Assembly: GCA_003669055.1 (NCBI GenBank)
Contig: RAYB01000046.1
Coordinates: forward strand, 1 to 34,156
Direction: 5' to 3'
Length of the DNA: 34,156 bases
Source: a bacterium 1XD21-70
Lineage (GTDB): Bacteria > Bacillota > Clostridia > Lachnospirales > Lachnospiraceae
The notes under the pieces: model-generated
Seen by the model: only the letters and a program-made list of their open reading frames with translations
Databases searched by the model: none
Told to the model about the DNA's origin: nothing
Part shown: positions 1,447 to 21,556 of the stretch, piece after piece
Layout of the letters: every line of letters begins with the position of its first letter
Position numbering within the stretch: the first letter of the stretch is position 1
Program-made: the position numbers and the translations under genes

Positions 1447-4344
1447 CTAATGCTTCTTTTTCTCATAGAGAGCCGCAAACACAATCAGGCCGATCCCTGC
1501 CGTCAAAAGATATACCCACCAGGAAATGCTCAGCCAAAAACCCTTTGTCATGTAAAGTGCCACCAGAACCATGATCCCTCCTGCCGCCCATATCCACTTC
1601 CGGCAGTGCCTTGCCAGCGCCCACACAAACACTGACAGGCAGACCCCTTCCAAAATCAACGCATTTACCACCGCTGCACGTACCCAGGCATTGGCCAAAA
1701 GCGCCAGGAGACACAACAGATAGCCCCAATCCTGCCATGCGCACACAAAGTTCCCCTCCCCCTGCACGCTTGCCGTATCCCGTTTCCCCTCCCACTCATT
1801 CCAGATCCTGCCCAGCAGCCACAGATACCCTGCTGCCGGCAGCAATTTGATTTCCATCCACAGCGAGGAGGGGAATGCCACAAACGGCTGGCTCCAAAAT
1901 GCCAATACCAGCATAAACAAAGACGCAGACCGCGCCGCCCTTTTCCATTCTTCCACCGCCGTATACTGCCAAAAATACAAGCCCAAAAAGAGCAGATAAC
2001 AAAACCTCCAATAAATGCTGCACCTGCCGGCCTCCGCTGCCAGCATAAACACTGCCAGCACATGGAACCAGTCCACACGCCATCCGCCCAATACCCTCCT
2101 GTCCGGCTCACAGATCCTATAAAACCTCCTCGCACAAATCCCGGTCACAAGCAGGACGGCCGGTATGGCCAGGCACAGTTCATTCTCTGTCCATCCATGC
2201 CAGGCCTCCAGCACAGACGGCAGAGGCAGCCAGGCCACGCTGATTAACAGATGCGGCCAGACCCTTTGCCCCACATAAAACATCACATAGAACCCGCCGG
2301 ATACTGCCAGGCACAAGAGAAGTTCCCAGGCTCTTGCATCCGGGTCTGCATAAAATGCCAGCATCATAAATACTGCCAAAAAGCTGCCGCAGACATCCCA
2401 AAAGACCCGCCTGGTTCCCGGCACATAAAATCCTCCCAGCCATTTTTTCTGCATCGCCATGCACGCCGCATACATCCACACGCTCCCCGTCAGCCGCAAA
2501 GCCATACTGTTTGCAGTAAACGGCCCCATCAGGATATACACCCCCAGCATCGCATAAAAAGCTGCCAGTTCGCTTTGTATGGCTGCCCTTTTCCCATCCA
2601 CTGCCTCCTCAGAAAGCAGGTATCCGGACAGCAGCAAAAGATACGGGAACATCAGCTTCTCTTTTGAAAAACCAAACACCTGCATTAAGGTTCCCAGCAC
2701 GAGAACCGAAAAGCCATACCCTTCCTTCCTCTTCCGCTCCCAAACAGCCAGGGCGCCAAGCAGCAAAAAACCAAAAAGCCCCCTGTCCAGCCAGTCCTTT
2801 GCCAGCCATTGCCACTGCCCCGGCTGCCCGCCCAGGATCTTGCATTCCGCCCAAACCGTCAGCGGCCAGGACACCAGATACCACATTAAAAACGGCAACA
2901 CCCCATGTGCCACAGCAGAACGTTTTTTCCAAGCCGTCACCACTGCTGCCAGCAGCAGCCCCCCTGCCAACGCCTTTCCCGCATGCCCGCAAAGGACGGC
3001 ATCCCTGATATAGGCTCTGCCCCATATCTGTTCCAGGAACAGGCGGCCGTTTAACATCCCTGCATCCCACAGCAAAAATCCCAGGCAGATGCAATCGCCC
3101 TCCTTTGTCCAAAAGAAAGAGCCCCTTCGCTTCTTTGCAGCCAGGTACACGGCCGTCACGGCCTCTGCCAGCAGAAATGCCCACATTCCCTTGCTGCCAT
3201 TTCCTCCCGCATGCGCAAAGCAAAGCCATGCTGCCAGATAATGGACTGTCCCCGCCATTGCCAGGACAAAAAAAGTTTTCTGCCATCCTGGCTTCGTTTG
3301 CCTTAGCAGCACCGCACTCCCTCCAACCGCGGCTGCCAATGCCAGAGCCACCCACCATCCAAACCACCATGTCACCTGAAAAAGGCCGCCTACCGTCCCC
3401 AGGCCAACCACCAAAAAGGCAAACACCCAAAAGTGGATCTGGGCAAACAGAGGGATTTCCTCTGCCAGCATTGCTGCCAGTTTCCCCCCTGCCCTCTTTT
3501 CTCTCCTCCCCTTGGCTTTCTCCAGCCGCCATTTCCCCAAAACCAGCAAAAACGCATATCCCATCATGGCACTGGCCCATTTGCTGAACACACTCACCTC
3601 ACAGGCCAGCAGAAGAAATGTTAGATTGACTGTCATCCCCCAGCAGCACGCCTGCGTATAAATCCTGTCATGAAACCGCTCAATCCCGAAAAACAGCATC
3701 ACCACGGCCACCAGGCTCCCAACCCACAATACCCGCCACCGGTTCTGTCCGTCCAGCACGTACTCAGGCCCTAACAGCCGGAAATACGCTGCCGCCAGCA
3801 CTGCCAAAAATAGAAATATGCTCCCCAGGACATAAAGGGCATTTCCCGTCTTGTGGATATGCAGCTTCCTCTCTGCCAGGAAGCTGGTGCAAAAAAACAC
3901 CCCCGAAAAAGCCAGGACAAACAAAACTTTTGCCGGATTTGACAGCACCTGCCACGCCGTAGTGGCAAAAATCAGTCCCGCAAGCACCACAAAAACTACC
4001 CCTGCCAGCAATGCCAGGATCCCCATGTTCCCCCCTGCCGGGATCAGCCCTCTGTTATGGCAGGCCAATTTCCCCTCCGCCGGGATTTCTTTTACCGGGT
4101 CTGCTGCCTCCTGCCGTCCTTCCTCTCGCTGCCGTGCCATGCACAGGGTTCCCTGCCCCAGCACTGCCGCTGCCTTTTCCTCTTCTTGTTCCTCCCTGCC
4201 CACAAGTTCCCCGCATTCCTTAAGCTTTCCCTCCAGTTCCCGGATCTTCCTCTTATATCTGCCATTTGCAGCCCCAAGCCCCACAATAACCGCCAATTCC
4301 ACCGGCGGTGCCACCAACCACAAAAGAACCGTCAGCATCCACAT
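1447..4344 (-). CDS. Large polytopic membrane protein, unknown function
   Basis: This is a 965-residue protein. I place the start at ATG 4344 because AAGGAGG sits 6 bases upstream (4351-4357); the in-frame ATG at 4452 lies upstream of a likely promoter and has no ribosome binding site. After an N-terminal membrane segment comes a charged helical stretch (about residues 30-60, KRKIRELEGKLKE). A long series of about 25 hydrophobic segments then runs to the C-terminus, which ends in a short lysine-rich tail. The architecture resembles the poorly characterised DUF2157/DUF2339-type giant membrane proteins of Firmicutes, but I cannot confirm the family. No catalytic motif was recognised. It precedes the sensor kinase in the direction of transcription. 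Confidence 0.8.
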   Translation of the reverse strand: MWMLTVLLWLVAPPVELAVIVGLGAANGRYKRKIRELEGKLKECGELVGREEQEEEKAAAVLGQGTLCMARQREEGRQEAADPVKEIPAEGKLACHNRGLIPAGGNMGILALLAGVVFVVLAGLIFATTAWQVLSNPAKVLFVLAFSGVFFCTSFLAERKLHIHKTGNALYVLGSIFLFLAVLAAAYFRLLGPEYVLDGQNRWRVLWVGSLVAVVMLFFGIERFHDRIYTQACCWGMTVNLTFLLLACEVSVFSKWASAMMGYAFLLVLGKWRLEKAKGRREKRAGGKLAAMLAEEIPLFAQIHFWVFAFLVVGLGTVGGLFQVTWWFGWWVALALAAAVGGSAVLLRQTKPGWQKTFFVLAMAGTVHYLAAWLCFAHAGGNGSKGMWAFLLAEAVTAVYLAAKKRRGSFFWTKEGDCICLGFLLWDAGMLNGRLFLEQIWGRAYIRDAVLCGHAGKALAGGLLLAAVVTAWKKRSAVAHGVLPFLMWYLVSWPLTVWAECKILGGQPGQWQWLAKDWLDRGLFGFLLLGALAVWERKRKEGYGFSVLVLGTLMQVFGFSKEKLMFPYLLLLSGYLLSEEAVDGKRAAIQSELAAFYAMLGVYILMGPFTANSMALRLTGSVWMYAACMAMQKKWLGGFYVPGTRRVFWDVCGSFLAVFMMLAFYADPDARAWELLLCLAVSGGFYVMFYVGQRVWPHLLISVAWLPLPSVLEAWHGWTENELCLAIPAVLLVTGICARRFYRICEPDRRVLGGWRVDWFHVLAVFMLAAEAGRCSIYWRFCYLLFLGLYFWQYTAVEEWKRAARSASLFMLVLAFWSQPFVAFPSSLWMEIKLLPAAGYLWLLGRIWNEWEGKRDTASVQGEGNFVCAWQDWGYLLCLLALLANAWVRAAVVNALILEGVCLSVFVWALARHCRKWIWAAGGIMVLVALYMTKGFWLSISWWVYLLTAGIGLIVFAALYEKKKH

Positions 4345-12896: not shown

Positions 12897-14612
12897 CTAT
12901 GCTTCCTCCCTTGCCTTGATATTCCTGCTGACACCGAAGAACCGGATCAGGGTATTCATAACCAGCACTGCCCCATAGGTGATGGCAATCAGCACTGTCG
13001 CGTAGGCACAGGCTACGCCGTAATTGCCCTTCTCTGCCTGCTCATTGATCTGGCAGGTGATCAGCAAAAAGTCCGGTGTCACCAATAGGATGATCGCCGA
13101 GATTGCCGTAATGCTGCGCACAAAGGCTGTCACCAGGCCGCTGAAAAAGGAATCCTTGATCAGCGGCAGCGTAACCGTCATAAACACCCTGGCCGAATTG
13201 GCTCCCATGTCGTAGGCCGACTCCTCGATCGATTTGTCAATCTGGCGCAGAGCCGAGATCCCGCTTCTGGTCCCGGTAGGGAGGCTCCTCACGATAAAGA
13301 CAATGACCAGGATCAGCCCGGTCCCATAAAGCCCGCTCATGATGCCGCTCCGGAACAGGCCGTTTGCATAGCCCCGGATATAGCCGATGCCCAGCACGGT
13401 GCCCGGGACTGCCATCGCCAGCATGGACACAAACTCGATAAACCCTTTCCCCTTAAACCGCTTCTTCACCACTAAGTAGGCGATGACCATGGAGAGGAAT
13501 GCCGTCAGCGGCGACGCGATCAGCGAAAGCACAAAGGAATCCTTAAATGCTTTCAGCCCGCTGGTGCGCAGCATATACTGGAACCACTTGAGCGACAGGC
13601 TGTAATCCCGCCCCCACAGGGTGAACAGTGCGCCGAACGGAACCATCACATACATCAGCACCACGAAAGCCGCTACCAAGGTACAGAATATAGTCAGCGG
13701 CACGGTCACGCTCTTATCCTCGATCAGCATGCGCATCCGCGATGCCTTTCCGGTCAGCGTTGCCGCCGTCTTCTTTTCCAGGTAATACTTCTGGATCAAA
13801 AACAGCACCACGGTCAGCGACAAAAGCACCACGGACATCGCCGCGGCCCCGGTAGAGTCGTAGGCACCGGTCACCTGCAGATAGATGGTGGTGGCGAGCG
13901 TGTCATAGGAACCGCCGATCAGCATGGGATTGGCAAAGTCCGCCACCGACTCGATAAAGGTCACCAGGAATGCATTGCCCAGGCCGGGAAGCAGAAGCGG
14001 GAAAGTCACACTGGTGAACACCTTCCACCGGGTCGCCCCCATGTCCCGCGTCGCCTCCTCCAAAGACGGGTCGATATTCTTCAGCAGCCCTTTCAGCATC
14101 AGGTAGCACACCGGGAAAAACGTCAGCGTCTGCACGATGGCGATCCCCTTCAGCCCATAGACATTGGAATCATAGATTTTTAAAAGCGAACGGGTAATGA
14201 TGCCGCTGCGCCCGAACAGCATAATCATGGACAAGGACAGCACAAACGGCGGTGAAACGACCGGCAGCATGGACACCACCGCAAACAGCTTCTCAAGTAC
14301 CTTTGTCCTCAGTTTCACATAGACCTCCACATAGGCAAACAAAAGGCCGATCGCCGTGGAAGCCAGACCCGTGATCACCCCCAGCACCAGGGTGTTTTTG
14401 AATGCTGCCTGGAACCGTTCCAGGCTCAGCACCCTCTGAAATACGGCAAGGGTCACATGCCCCTCCTCCAAAAAGCTGTCCACCAAAAGCATGAGCAGCG
14501 GGTACAAAATAAACAATGCCAAGAATACCAGCAGCACCACAATCATGCTGATCAGTATGGGATCCGAAAAAAATTTCCTGCGTTCCAGATCCGTACTTTG
14601 CCTTCCAGCCAC
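12897..14612 (-). CDS. ABC importer permease with two fused transmembrane domains
   Basis: A 571-residue inner-membrane protein made of two homologous binding-protein-dependent permease halves, each with about six helices. The two EAA loops that contact the ATPase are LEEATRDMGATRWKVF (first half) and IEESAYDMGANSARVF (second half). Fused permeases of this form are typical of the FbpB/AfuB (Fe3+-type) class, so one polypeptide supplies the whole channel. It sits between the binding-protein gene and the ATPase gene. The 199-bp gap to the binding-protein gene contains a terminator-like hairpin. Confidence 0.95.
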   Translation of the reverse strand: MAGRQSTDLERRKFFSDPILISMIVVLLVFLALFILYPLLMLLVDSFLEEGHVTLAVFQRVLSLERFQAAFKNTLVLGVITGLASTAIGLLFAYVEVYVKLRTKVLEKLFAVVSMLPVVSPPFVLSLSMIMLFGRSGIITRSLLKIYDSNVYGLKGIAIVQTLTFFPVCYLMLKGLLKNIDPSLEEATRDMGATRWKVFTSVTFPLLLPGLGNAFLVTFIESVADFANPMLIGGSYDTLATTIYLQVTGAYDSTGAAAMSVVLLSLTVVLFLIQKYYLEKKTAATLTGKASRMRMLIEDKSVTVPLTIFCTLVAAFVVLMYVMVPFGALFTLWGRDYSLSLKWFQYMLRTSGLKAFKDSFVLSLIASPLTAFLSMVIAYLVVKKRFKGKGFIEFVSMLAMAVPGTVLGIGYIRGYANGLFRSGIMSGLYGTGLILVIVFIVRSLPTGTRSGISALRQIDKSIEESAYDMGANSARVFMTVTLPLIKDSFFSGLVTAFVRSITAISAIILLVTPDFLLITCQINEQAEKGNYGVACAYATVLIAITYGAVLVMNTLIRFFGVSRNIKAREEA

Positions 14613-14705
14613 AATCCACTCCCCCTTTCTTCTATAATTTATGCACTATTTCTGCATTCTCACATAACATGTTTTTACCTTTCTGCCATACACCGATAAA
14701 GCAAA

Positions 14706-14738
14706 ATGCTGCGCAGCGCAAGGCACGCTACGCAGCAT
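14706..14738 (-). terminator. Terminator-like hairpin between binding protein and permease genes
   Basis: Arms 14726-14738 and 14706-14718 pair over 13 bp with one G-U pair and a 7-base loop, followed on the minus strand by TTTTGCTTT. This is the usual position for a partial terminator or 3' stabilising hairpin that keeps the binding protein more abundant than the permease and ATPase. Confidence 0.72.
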
Positions 14739-14811
14739 CCGTCTGTCCGGCGGCTTTCCCATGCAGCCCCCGGACGGTTGCTTTCATTTCAAAAACTGGA
14801 ATCCTTTTGCA

Positions 14812-16002
14812 CTACTCCGTCTTGAAACGGTTGTCCGCGGCGCTTCCCAGTGCCGCAAAGAAATCCTCTACATATTTGGCACTGTTTGCCTTTGCATCCT
14901 CAAAATCATAATCAATGGTATTGTTCATATCCAGCCCGAAACGGGTGGCCTCCTCCGGCTGGGTGCCATTGGAAATCACCAAAAACTGATAGGAACCTGC
15001 CTCCTTGGCGTGGTCCACACACTCCGGGGACAGTGCATACTCGATCCAAAGCTTAGCCGCATTCGGATGGGCGCAGCCGTTGAAGATCGCCGTAGCACCC
15101 ACCTCAAAGGAAGTACCGTCCTCCGGGACGATCAGCTCGATGTTGTCATATCCCTGCAGGATCTGGTAAATGCCGTCATGCAAAAAGCCGATGCCGATCA
15201 CGCACTCGCCCGGGCCCACCATCTTGGAAGGGCCGGAACCAGACTTGGTGTACTGGTTGATATTCTGATCCAGCTTCTTAAAATACTCCATGGCTTCCTC
15301 ATGGCCTCTCATCTGGATCATCGTGTTGATGACCAGCTTTGCCGTACCGGCCGTGTTCGGGTTGGACAGCATGATCAGCCCCTTGTACTCCTCCTTGGCC
15401 AGGTCGTCCCAGGTCTTCGGCGCCTCCAGGTTCAAGCGCTCAAGTTCTTCCGTGTTCACCATAAAGCCTAAGATCCCTTTGTAGATGCCGTACCAGCAAT
15501 TGGTCGGGTCTTTGTAGTCTTCGCTGATTAGATTTGCCGCATTCTCCGCCTCATACTCCATCAGCAGCCCGTCTGCCACTGCCTCGTTGTAGGGGTCAGT
15601 CGTGCCGCCGAACCACACATCCGCCGAGGGCTTCCCTGCCTCCTCTGAAATCTTGGTATACACCTCCGATGTGGAAAGCCGCTGGAATTTGGTCTTGATC
15701 CCATAGAGTTCCTCAAAATTCTTGCAGGCTAGGGACAGATATTCCTCCTCGCAGGAGCCGTACACAGTCAGTTCACCCTCTGCCTTGGCCGCCTCAATCA
15801 AAGCCTCCATGCCGCCTGCCTCCCCGGCAGCCTCTGCCTGTGTCTCCTTCTCCCCTTCGTCCTTGGCAGCCTCCGTCTGTGCCGGAGCCTGTGTGGACGC
15901 CTCGGCAGACGCCGCCGGAGCCTCCCCGCCGCCTCCGCCGCAGGCACTTAAGCCAAACGCCATCGAACATGCCAACAGTAATGCCAACCTCTTTTTCATC
16001 AT
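14812..16002 (-). CDS. ABC importer substrate-binding lipoprotein, AfuA/FbpA/PhnS-like
   Basis: A 396-residue lipoprotein. The start is ATG 16002 (or the next codon, 15999), with GGAGG five to eight bases upstream; a further-upstream in-frame ATG has no ribosome binding site. A short signal peptide ends in LSAC with the lipidated Cys at residue 21, followed by a low-complexity Gly/Ala/Glu linker to about residue 70. The mature domain contains ELTVYGSCEEEY, ADVWFGGTTDPYNEA and YTKSGSGPSKMVGPGE, the pattern of family 1 binding proteins annotated as Fe3+, 2-aminoethylphosphonate or hexose-phosphate (AfuA) binders. I see no adjacent Tyr-Tyr pair of the kind used by FbpA for iron, so iron is not proven. 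It leads the ABC operon. Confidence 0.93.
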   Translation of the reverse strand: MMKKRLALLLACSMAFGLSACGGGGGEAPAASAEASTQAPAQTEAAKDEGEKETQAEAAGEAGGMEALIEAAKAEGELTVYGSCEEEYLSLACKNFEELYGIKTKFQRLSTSEVYTKISEEAGKPSADVWFGGTTDPYNEAVADGLLMEYEAENAANLISEDYKDPTNCWYGIYKGILGFMVNTEELERLNLEAPKTWDDLAKEEYKGLIMLSNPNTAGTAKLVINTMIQMRGHEEAMEYFKKLDQNINQYTKSGSGPSKMVGPGECVIGIGFLHDGIYQILQGYDNIELIVPEDGTSFEVGATAIFNGCAHPNAAKLWIEYALSPECVDHAKEAGSYQFLVISNGTQPEEATRFGLDMNNTIDYDFEDAKANSAKYVEDFFAALGSAADNRFKTE

Positions 16003-16074
16003 GCATTCCTCCCTTATGCTATAATATCTTGCCGCGGTATCCAAAACCAGGAAAACCCTGCAACCGCTTATGCA

Positions 16075-16083
16075 ATTATACCA
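16075..16083 (-). promoter_or_regulatory. Extended -10 promoter of the AfuA-like ABC operon
   Basis: On the minus strand TGG is followed by a perfect TATAAT (16080-16075); the -35 region is only T-rich. An imperfect palindrome with TGCA ends lies just downstream near 16059-16074 and could be an operator, but it is weak. Confidence 0.65.
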
Positions 16084-16143
16084 CACAAAGAAAGAAATAA
16101 AAACCCTTTCCTGTAAATTTCACCCAAATTTTATCCAGGCTTC

Positions 16144-18891: not shown

Positions 18892-19125
18892 TCAAAGCAT
18901 ATTCAGAACCAGAGCCAGTACCATGAACAGAACTGCAGCTGCCTTCGTGAACTTTTCCAGGGTCCCTTCCATGGAACGCCCTTTATTCTTGCCCCAATAG
19001 CTGTCAGCCATACCGCTGATGGAGCCAAGGCCTGCGGACTTCCCTTCCTGAAGTAAGATAATCACAATTAACGCCAGGCAAATAAGCGAAAAAATCACCG
19101 ACAGAATCACTTTCAGCATATCCAT
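18892..19125 (-). CDS. secG: Preprotein translocase subunit SecG
   Basis: A 77-residue membrane protein with two hydrophobic helices (about 5-25 and 58-77). Between them is the SecG signature QEGKSAGLGSISGMADSYWG and a KNKGRSMEG loop. It associates with SecYE to assist protein export. ATG 19125 is only three bases from AGGAGG; ATG 19119, nine bases away, would give 75 residues. Related SecG proteins align best with the longer form. It has its own promoter and is separated from eno by the unusual palindrome interval. Confidence 0.95.
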   Translation of the reverse strand: MDMLKVILSVIFSLICLALIVIILLQEGKSAGLGSISGMADSYWGKNKGRSMEGTLEKFTKAAAVLFMVLALVLNML

Positions 19126-19180: not shown

Positions 19181-19220
19181 GCGTTTTTTCCGGGTTCTTG
19201 AGAAGCTTGGCGAGAGGTCC

Positions 19221-19475
19221 GCCTGGTGGAGAGGGGGAGGGGGTGCCTGGCAGGGAAGGGGGTTGGCGGCGTGCGGTTTCGGGATGTAAGAGGTTCTAAA
19301 AACTTCCGGGTTTTGCTAAAAGCGAAACGAAAATGCATAAACTCGCTTCGCTCAGACAGTATGCATTTTCGTTCCAACGCAAAATCCGGAAATTTAAGAA
19401 CCTCTAACATCCCTGCAAATGCAGCACCGCCAACCCCCTTCCCTGCCAGGCACCCCCTCCCCCTCTCCACCAGGC
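19221..19475. repeat. Giant palindromic element, copy 1 (255 bp)
   Basis: Outer arms 19221-19268 and 19428-19475 are perfect 48-bp reverse complements. Inside, an asymmetric unpaired zone (left 12, right 14 bases) leads to an inner stem that starts with GGGATGT (19281-19287) / ACATCCC (19407-19413). It continues, with small bulges, to a terminal ATGCATA/TATGCAT stem and a loop containing CTCGCTTCGCTCAG. No stop-free frame with a recognisable product spans it. The core is the reverse complement of the core of copy 2, while the outer arms are unrelated to those of copy 2 apart from the GCCTGG...CCAGGC ends. The 5' outer arm has tracts of 5, 5, 3 and 5 G residues. Confidence 0.93.
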
Positions 19476-19534
19476 TTCTGTACCGGCCTGTGCTTTGTCT
19501 TTGCAAAATGGGAACCAGATGGGATAGATGGCGG

Positions 19535-19563
19535 TTTCTTTGTTTTGGGAATCGTGGTAAAAT
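19535..19563 (+). promoter_or_regulatory. Possible promoter for the small plus-strand gene
   Basis: TGG then TAAAAT (19558-19563) forms an extended -10; TTTCTT (19535-19540) lies 17 bp upstream as a weak -35. It is 38 bp before the proposed GTG start and immediately right of palindrome copy 1. Confidence 0.45.
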
Positions 19564-19600
19564 AAAAGATAGAATGAGAAATTGGGGGTGATTGGGTGGG

Positions 19601-19876
19601 GTGAAGTTTGTATTGGATACAAAGTATTCAGAAAAGGAGTTGGAATTTATGAACAGGCATCATTGTGAGATATTGCCTGAAATCAAATTATCAAAGACCA
19701 ACTTTTCTAAATACGAAACGCCCCGCCGAATGTTAAAATACGGCGGTGTTTATGTTGCTGAAATTTTTGATGATGAAAGCAATAGACTTGTGTGGGCTGT
19801 TTTATCAAAAAGGAAAGGCATTTATCACTTTTCCGCCTTTTTTGATAGTTTAGATATGCTGGAACAAAGCTTATAA
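19601..19876 (+). CDS. Small hypothetical protein between two giant palindromes
   Basis: A 91-residue reading frame and the only convincing plus-strand gene. I do not recognise the family. I place the start at GTG 19601, nine bases after GGGGGTGA; TTG 19592 is possible but sits directly on that Shine-Dalgarno. The protein looks soluble, with an N-terminal charged stretch (TKYSEKELEFMNRHHCE), a central ETPRRMLKYGGVYVAEIFDD and a C-terminal aromatic segment GIYHFSAFFDSLDM, compatible with a small alpha/beta fold. No signal peptide or membrane helix is present. Base composition is visibly more AT-rich than the neighbours, which suggests transfer. It is bounded on both sides by inverted copies of the palindromic element. 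Confidence 0.65.
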   Translation: MKFVLDTKYSEKELEFMNRHHCEILPEIKLSKTNFSKYETPRRMLKYGGVYVAEIFDDESNRLVWAVLSKRKGIYHFSAFFDSLDMLEQSL

Positions 19877-19959
19877 TTGAATTGCCCACATCTTCCCAAG
19901 ATCCCCTTAGATTCCCAGATACGCCGCAACACCCAAATGGTAACCCTTGCCAAGGACCA

Positions 19960-20227
19960 GCCTGGGAGAAAGGGCAGGGCGGCAGGGGCTTTGGGATCCA
20001 CAGAGGCTTGCCTGGCGTGCATTTGCAGGGATGTTAGGGGTTCTTAAACTTCCGGGGGTTGCGTTGAAACGAAAATGCATACTGTCTGAGCGAAGCGAGT
20101 TTATGCATTTTCGTTTCGCTTTTAGCAAAACCCAGAAGCTTTTAGAACCCCTTACATCCCGAAACCGCACGCCAGGCAAGCCTCTGCGGATCCCAAAGCC
20201 CCTGCCGCCCTGCCCTTTCTCCCAGGC
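19960..20227. repeat. Giant palindromic element, copy 2 (268 bp)
   Basis: Outer arms 19960-20020 and 20167-20227 are 61-bp reverse complements with a single mismatch. The core (about 20021-20166) matches the reverse complement of copy 1 at about 94% of aligned bases, with a 3-base gap. The unpaired ATTTGCA on one side and GAAACC on the other are identical in both copies. In the inner stem an A-T pair of copy 1 is replaced by G-C in copy 2. The 5' outer arm contains four G tracts of three or more with short loops (19964-19987), a canonical quadruplex pattern. It begins 17 bp after the eno stop codon, so it would form part of the eno 3' UTR. Confidence 0.93.
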
Positions 20228-20244
20228 GTACCCTCCCCTTCAGA

Positions 20245-21556
<1,312 letters not shown>

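Follow-up and report, generated by a model that had tools for sequence, protein, structure and literature searches.

We analyzed a 34,156-nucleotide stretch of DNA (hereafter, the window) from the Lachnospiraceae bacterium 1XD21-70, in which two giant palindromes lie between eno and secG, and the best explanation in full is probably that they are two copies of a family of MITE-like, non-autonomous elements of the Lachnospiraceae; that this family is a mobile one is very likely. Each copy would form one giant hairpin, in which conserved unpaired bases (the terminal and internal loops and isolated A·A mismatches) would be embedded in a freely drifting stem, and the element would occur either singly or as inverted pairs with their GGTAC feet outward, one such pair being that between eno and secG. 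In relatives, its insertion duplicates 8 bp of the target, and the transposase is probably provided in trans by IS66-family transposons with matching ends. A change in one arm would be copied to the other, the most likely route being a template switch at the hairpin when the DNA is replicated. Selection would retain the unpaired core, which is probably required as a DNA structure for mobility or persistence. This reading keeps the interpretation given in the initial annotation insofar as it concerns a non-autonomous mobile element inserted between eno and secG as an inverted pair, and abandons its suggestions of an RNA pair and of a cargo-bearing cassette. The features of the locus, in coordinates of the window, are the following.

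20245-21519, minus strand: eno
About 18892-19125, minus strand: secG
19216-19220, plus strand: left foot of copy 1, GGTCC, a variant form (most copies have GGTAC)
19221-19475, plus strand: copy 1, whole giant palindrome of 255 bases, with outer arms at 19221-19269 and 19427-19475
19272-19423, plus strand: core of copy 1 with the conserved loops, 152 nt, covariance model score of 168.9 bits
19342-19359, plus strand: terminal loop of copy 1, CTCGCTTCGCTCAGACAG, conserved across 44 cores
19476-19959, no strand: AT-rich spacer separating the palindromes, 484 bp, 39.9% G+C
19592-19876, plus strand: 94-codon open reading frame (ORF) with a TTG start; GTG at 19604 is also possible
19960-20227, minus strand: copy 2, whole giant palindrome of 268 bases, inverted relative to copy 1, with outer arms at 19960-20029 and 20158-20227
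20018-20169, minus strand: core of copy 2, 152 nt, covariance model score of 162.9 bits
20082-20099, minus strand: terminal loop of copy 2, a match to the loop 18-mer
20228-20232, minus strand: foot of copy 2, GGTAC, read from the sequence

The outer arms of copy 1 (49 nt) are 100% complementary and those of copy 2 (70 nt) are 93% complementary. The two copies are mutual inversions over 172 nt at 91%, and their 152-nt cores, taken from the plus strand for copy 1 and from the minus strand for copy 2, share 94% identity, which bears out the earlier description of two giant palindromes with homologous cores in opposite orientation. By contrast, the outer left arms of the two copies are 64% identical, a value equal to the maximum of 300 shuffles (mean of 54%), and the outer stems are thus nearly unrelated. 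Perfect 16-mer inverted-repeat seeds located at most 400 bp apart are confined, across the whole window, to the eno-secG interval, and the loop 18-mer, with up to 3 mismatches allowed, occurs twice in the window, with a chance expectation of 0.03. Elsewhere in the window (12897-16086), there are ORFs resembling, by eye, an ABC transporter permease and its substrate-binding protein.

Comparison with other genomes of the genus indicated that the palindromes were inserted into the eno-secG neighborhood. All 24 genomes contain an eno match, with SecG being adjacent in 12 loci, including that of the window. In the 11 relatives, the gap between the two genes measures 59-137 bp in eight cases and 211, 314, and 401 bp in the genomes G008, G013, and G022, respectively; that of the window is about 1.1 kb long. 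The element is absent from the gap in 10 of the 11 relatives, and the longer gap of the window is therefore derived, in agreement with the proposal that the palindromes interrupt this neighborhood; the interval, for which a comparison of relatives had been recommended, is not an ancient, fixed part of the locus. The gap of G022 contains a centre-deleted copy of the element. The gap of G013 (L170) contains an unrelated small palindrome, GGTTACGTTCACAGGTACCCTGTGAACGTAACC, which makes the eno-secG gap a site hit more than once by palindromic elements.

The core recurs widely. A query with the 172-nt core against the window's own genome returned 27 rows, which collapse to 23 distinct places after merging of split and reverse-strand rows, and 80 distinct places, counted by hand, were found in 58 sequence stretches of the congener G022. 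A covariance model was built from the 39 distinct copies of alignment A1 (40 rows, the row for copy 2 of the window duplicating copy 1) and matched 10 of the 24 genomes of the genus, including the window's own, with no match in the remaining 14. The carrier genomes contain at least 129, 102 (G017), 45, 20, 11, 5, 4, 2, 2, and 1 matches, both strands taken together. In a sample of 397 genomes and 334 genera of the bacterial family, 38 genomes from 33 genera gave a match (E-value of 1e-6); with at most 7 candidates scored per genome, this survey measures presence rather than copy number. Thus, the search of other genomes proposed in the initial annotation established that the core is not unique to this locus. 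An exact 47-letter pattern was found in 4 stretches of genome contigs from two organisms, a result that is no measure of range. The element had no match in the plasmid search, and the exact loop pattern had none among viral contigs; the phage search yielded one weak match to the core (76% over 76 bases), located at positions 3486-3561 of MT837089.1, an unannotated faecal phage record.

The elements are 250-340 bp long and contain no transposase gene, yet in relatives they carry the hallmarks of transposition. In a number of copies from the genomes G407, G093, and G022, the palindrome extends into GTTACAGTTCAC-, GTTACTGTTCAC-, or GTAACAGTTCAG-type ends, and the element ends in relatives are of the type GTTAC(A/T)GTTCAC or GTAACAGTTCAG, or else GTTACTTTTCACGGGGTG. 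Among the 27 copies with both terminal repeats, which include core-deleted forms, the flanking 8-mers match at 7 or 8 positions in 21 (17 of them perfectly), compared to none of 2000 shuffled pairings, and 2 of the six misses match after a one-base shift. This count supersedes a first, looser scan, which returned duplications in 26 of 134 cases versus 6 of 665 controls, several of the hits falling inside palindrome arms. Three centre-deleted copies, of 238 bp (L260), 202 bp (L251), and 91 bp (L261), are flanked by perfect 8-bp duplications, evidence of internal shrinkage of the palindromes as well. In L111, a nested insertion was considered as proof of an empty arm and set aside, as the partner arm is not intact; only its target duplication was used. 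Copies with a core score below 130 were excluded from the duplication count, the scan for GTTAC-type ends, the analysis of gene orientation, the comparisons of arm identity and arm change, and the count of outer-stem mismatches. In a stricter scan of 55 scored copies of G022, 6 had both ends, 14 had one, and 35 had none. GTTAC-type ends were found in none of the 22 scored copies of the window's genome, in which direct repeats flank 8 of 20 copies, versus 312 of 2000 controls, and are mostly G-rich and inconsistently placed. Neither GTTAC-type ends nor a target duplication were found for the window copies, and the mobility is hence established for their relatives; the window copies presumably arrived in the same way. 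The multiple copies, the patchy presence among species, and the 8-bp target duplications in relatives uphold the earlier suggestion of a non-autonomous mobile element. Two other short palindromes of G407 (L250 and L253) have GTTACAGTTCAC or GTAACAGTTCAG ends and different insides; several element types may share one transposase.

The inverted arrangement seen in the window also recurs. Of 24 pairs of neighboring copies within 800 bp of each other, the window included, 22 are oriented plus then minus and none minus then plus, nine of the paired stretches having been selected as close pairs; in stretches chosen for single copies, the same order is found for 12 of 13 neighboring pairs.

In kind, the family is a MITE. 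Its members are short, present in many copies (23 places in the window's genome and 80 in the stretches of G022), and without a transposase gene, and in relatives they have terminal inverted repeats and a target duplication (21 of 27). Bacterial MITEs such as QMITE2 of Coxiella, as far as described in the available text of PMC10969869, are likewise short and intergenic, with many copies, no transposase gene, terminal repeats, 8-bp duplications (matched here by those of the relatives), and a stable hairpin spanning the whole element. Unlike in those MITEs, the unpaired bases rather than the stem sequence are conserved, the arms evolve in concert, one core is associated with several kinds of ends, and the window copies have no GTTAC-type ends. 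What is unusual is the combination of a whole-element hairpin, conservation restricted to unpaired bases, concerted arm evolution with no RNA signature, and several ends per core. A literature search covering titles and abstract starts of open-licence papers returned no description of the hairpin family, and the available text of the MITE review PMC10969869 contains none of the terms IS66, Clostrid, or Lachnospir.

The anatomy of the hairpin was examined in alignment A2, in which 65 rows were reduced to 44, one per place, and fitted to the structure of the model. In these 44 cores, 34 of which come from outside the genus, the unpaired bases hold and the paired bases differ almost everywhere, with 1586 of 1712 cells still paired. 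Conservation is highest in the terminal loop, AACTCGCTnCGCTCAGACA, followed by the internal loop TGCTAAAAGC opposite AACGCA and the TTCTAA/CTAAGAA step; it is lower in the GGTTTCGG/CTGCAAA loop, which forms the base of the core. The commonest mismatch is an isolated A·A (34 in the 44 cores and 134 in congeneric copies). Most scored copies of the genus have a stem foot of the form GGTAC-GCC...GGC-TG, and GGTCCGC variants of the foot occur in another genus. A second, diverged hairpin type, with the feet GGTACGCTCTGGAAA and TGGTATTTACCAGCC, is present at six loci of G022 (L048, L052, L087, L111, L123, and L137); it frequently pairs in inverted orientation with the first type, and the outer stretch GTTACTTTTCACGGGGTGGGG is common to both.

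Outside the core, the stem changes rapidly and in a paired manner. The identity of the outer arms averages 84% where the cores are 95-100% identical and falls to 55% at 80-85% core identity, shuffled arms giving 49%. The outer stem is therefore carried along when the element moves and diverges quickly afterwards. Derivation of the outer stems from the target site was ruled out, because recent copies have common outer stems even where their sites differ. In 13 pairs of very close copies from G022, with 0-2 differences in the core, there are 15 paired and 14 single-arm differences at 494 stem positions, although independent change of the arms would predict only about 0.03 paired ones; in successively more distant copies, paired and single-arm differences number 296 versus 128, 705 versus 234, and 1349 versus 261. 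These comparisons involved copies of equal length with no more than 20 left-arm differences, excluded the 8 core-proximal stem positions, and drew on pairs that share copies. Within the core, both bases have been replaced in one or more copies for 29 of the 39 base pairs. Among strict nearest neighbors (28 copies), single-arm differences outnumber paired ones (35 versus 19), and newly arisen mismatches are thus not corrected at once. Overall, the data agree with a process in which a mismatch appears in one arm and is subsequently transferred to the opposite one; template switching acts in this way and is likely the main cause of the arm complementarity. Near-simultaneous matching changes in both arms have been attributed to template switching in RNA genes, as argued in the available text of PMC8794818, and template switching is also named in the available portions of PMC7202029, PMC3820800, and PMC8604942. 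Such changes are the likeness between those template-switch hairpins and the present family; the difference is that PMC8794818, in the text available, concerns RNA genes, whereas the element described here consists of long DNA palindromes with no sign of selection on RNA.

Pairing might instead be kept by selection alone, with no copying from arm to arm, in which case the element would still be a MITE. The unpaired bases of the core are clearly constrained, so selection does act on the structure; the excess of single-arm differences among nearest neighbors (35 versus 19) is compatible with it, and strong selection for pairing could yield the same long-term pattern as template switching. We consider selection alone rather unlikely, though a serious contender, given that the very close copies have 15 paired and 14 single-arm differences where independence predicts about 0.03 paired ones and that the G·T intermediate shows no excess over A·C. 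With dozens of long palindromes in a single genome serving as natural replicates, and a conserved core as the reference for measuring arm-to-arm conversion, the pairing and survival of long hairpins in bacteria become directly testable.

The candidates for a mobilising enzyme come from relatives. In G022 (L280), an intact 494-aa single-ORF gene of the IS66 family lies between GTAACAGTTCAGCCTT repeats; it matches PF03050 with 65.7 bits (cut-off of 23.1) and the NCBIfam IS66 model with 136.7 bits, below the cut-off of 180, and the transposon is flanked by the 8-bp duplication AATTTTTT. A relative of this transposase, 33% identical, is encoded in G098 (L286) by a transposon that has GTTACTTTTCACGGGGTGGGGAA at both ends, with 23 nt identical, and no target duplication. 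The first 21 nt of the G098 repeat are present at ends of G022 hairpin elements, and its first 18 nt, with up to 3 mismatches allowed, recur at the ends of some twenty of them. The single-ORF IS66-family transposons, which we take to be the ISBst12-like subgroup, thus resemble the hairpin elements of relatives in their terminal repeats (GTAACAGTTCAG... or GTTACTTTTCACGGGGTGGGG) and in the 8-bp duplication, and differ from the hairpins in carrying a gene. From these shared ends we infer, with a slight preference over other possibilities, that IS66-type transposases mobilise the hairpins in trans. A transposase of the L280 type was found in 2 of 20 genomes searched; PF03050 had matches in 6 of 7 genomes searched and none in the window's genome (G000), a pattern that loss of the helper after spread of the element would explain. 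Three further candidates were rejected: a three-copy insertion sequence of G093 (L282-L284), the ends of which are unrelated; a 2.5-kb segment of G407 between two GTTAC-like sites (L247), with metabolic-looking genes and no transposase; and the contig C63, with copies at both ends, which upon reading contains cobalamin-type genes.

The hairpins also share with REP/REPIN sequences, as presented in the available text of PMC12306157, PMC8266576, and PMC3733652, an extragenic location, a foot tag, and inverted pairs. Most scored copies have a tag-like foot (GGTAC or GGTCC) preceding the hairpin, the inverted pairs have their feet outward, and the copies of the window's genome, which encodes one Y1_Tnp protein, have no GTTAC-type ends, as might be expected of giant REP/REPIN-like elements, that is, GGTAC-footed hairpins that a Y1 (HUH) transposase would move in single-stranded form and as inverted pairs. 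Such a mode of movement is nevertheless improbable. Y1_Tnp is present in 6 of 10 carrier genomes, but no match to it (PF01797) was found in the other 4, including G017 with its 102 model hits, and it is present in 11 of 14 non-carriers; mobilisation by a Y1/RAYT protein was rejected on account of these 4 carriers. Furthermore, the 8-bp duplications observed in relatives do not fit the Y1 (HUH) mechanism. Finally, the elements, at 250-340 bp, are about ten times longer than REPs, which measure 20-40 bp according to the available text of PMC3733652, and the ~250-bp hairpins with GGTAC/GGTCC feet depart from the REP definition of 20-40 bp and a GTAG or CGTC tag.

The strong covariation combined with conserved unpaired bases is reminiscent of an RNA family and could reflect a structured non-coding RNA, or a pair of RNAs, under selection and dispersed by chance or transposition. 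RNA selected on one strand should favor G·U over A·C. However, in a comparison confined to the hairpin elements themselves, the cores contain 31 G·T and 30 A·C among 1712 cells (44 cores) and the outer stems 43 and 53, respectively, in 84 of 87 copies (the misparsed L013, L028, and L115 being dropped); isolated mismatches of the two types number 21 and 16 in the 44 cores and 63 and 93 in congeneric copies. Because G·T and A·C are about equally common, nothing points to selection on RNA. The window contains no Rfam family at the gathering score, and seven loci returned only sub-gathering matches, to 8 microRNA families and 1 UTR family. Relative to genes, there is no clear orientation preference, with 67 co-directional, 23 divergent, and 13 convergent arrangements at 103 places, based on rough ORF calls. 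The structured RNA pair envisaged at the outset is thus very improbable. Ordinary transcription terminators or chance palindromes can be practically dismissed: intergenic hairpins are common, and 230 of 250 palindromic RNA candidates of a microbiome survey were predicted to form terminators (available text of PMC8040213), but homologous cores recur at 80 places in one genome, the unpaired bases are conserved over many genera, convergent gene pairs are not favored (13 of 103 places), and the 8-bp duplications refute this explanation for the family.

The MITE-like family represents an abundant mobile element of some gut Lachnospiraceae for which there is no Rfam family at the gathering score and provides a warning to RNA searches, as the covariation in these hairpins does not demonstrate a functional RNA. 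As to the role of the core, a tentative possibility, somewhat less probable than its opposite, is a hairpin machine operating at the DNA level: mobility or persistence would require an extruded single-stranded hairpin recognised by its unpaired bases, which would be the loop AACTCGCTnCGCTCAGACA and the internal loops TGCTAAAAGC/AACGCA and TTCTAA/CTAAGAA, and the stem would serve as a sequence-free ruler renewed by template switching, the module being carried by chassis with differing ends across many Lachnospiraceae genera.

The 94-codon ORF between the palindromes has a G+C content of 34.4%, compared to 39.9% for the spacer and 54.3% for the window, so that the gene is AT-richer than its surroundings, as initially described. 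Searches of Pfam and PHROG returned no family for it, and no match to an NCBIfam model exceeded the cut-off. Full-length homologues with 63-65% identity are present in two other genera (G158 and G299), and the ORF is therefore a real gene. It was found in 3 of 397 genomes, including the window's own, and none of the 23 congeneric genomes contains it. In the loci of ~3.3 kb read around the homologues in G158 and G299, there is no core of the element, and the notion of a composite cassette with a cargo gene accordingly finds no support: the gene is real and scattered, a passenger or neighbor of one pair rather than recurrent cargo. Beside the homologue in G299 (L288, 1952-2239) lies an ORF resembling, by eye, a DinJ/RelB-type antitoxin.
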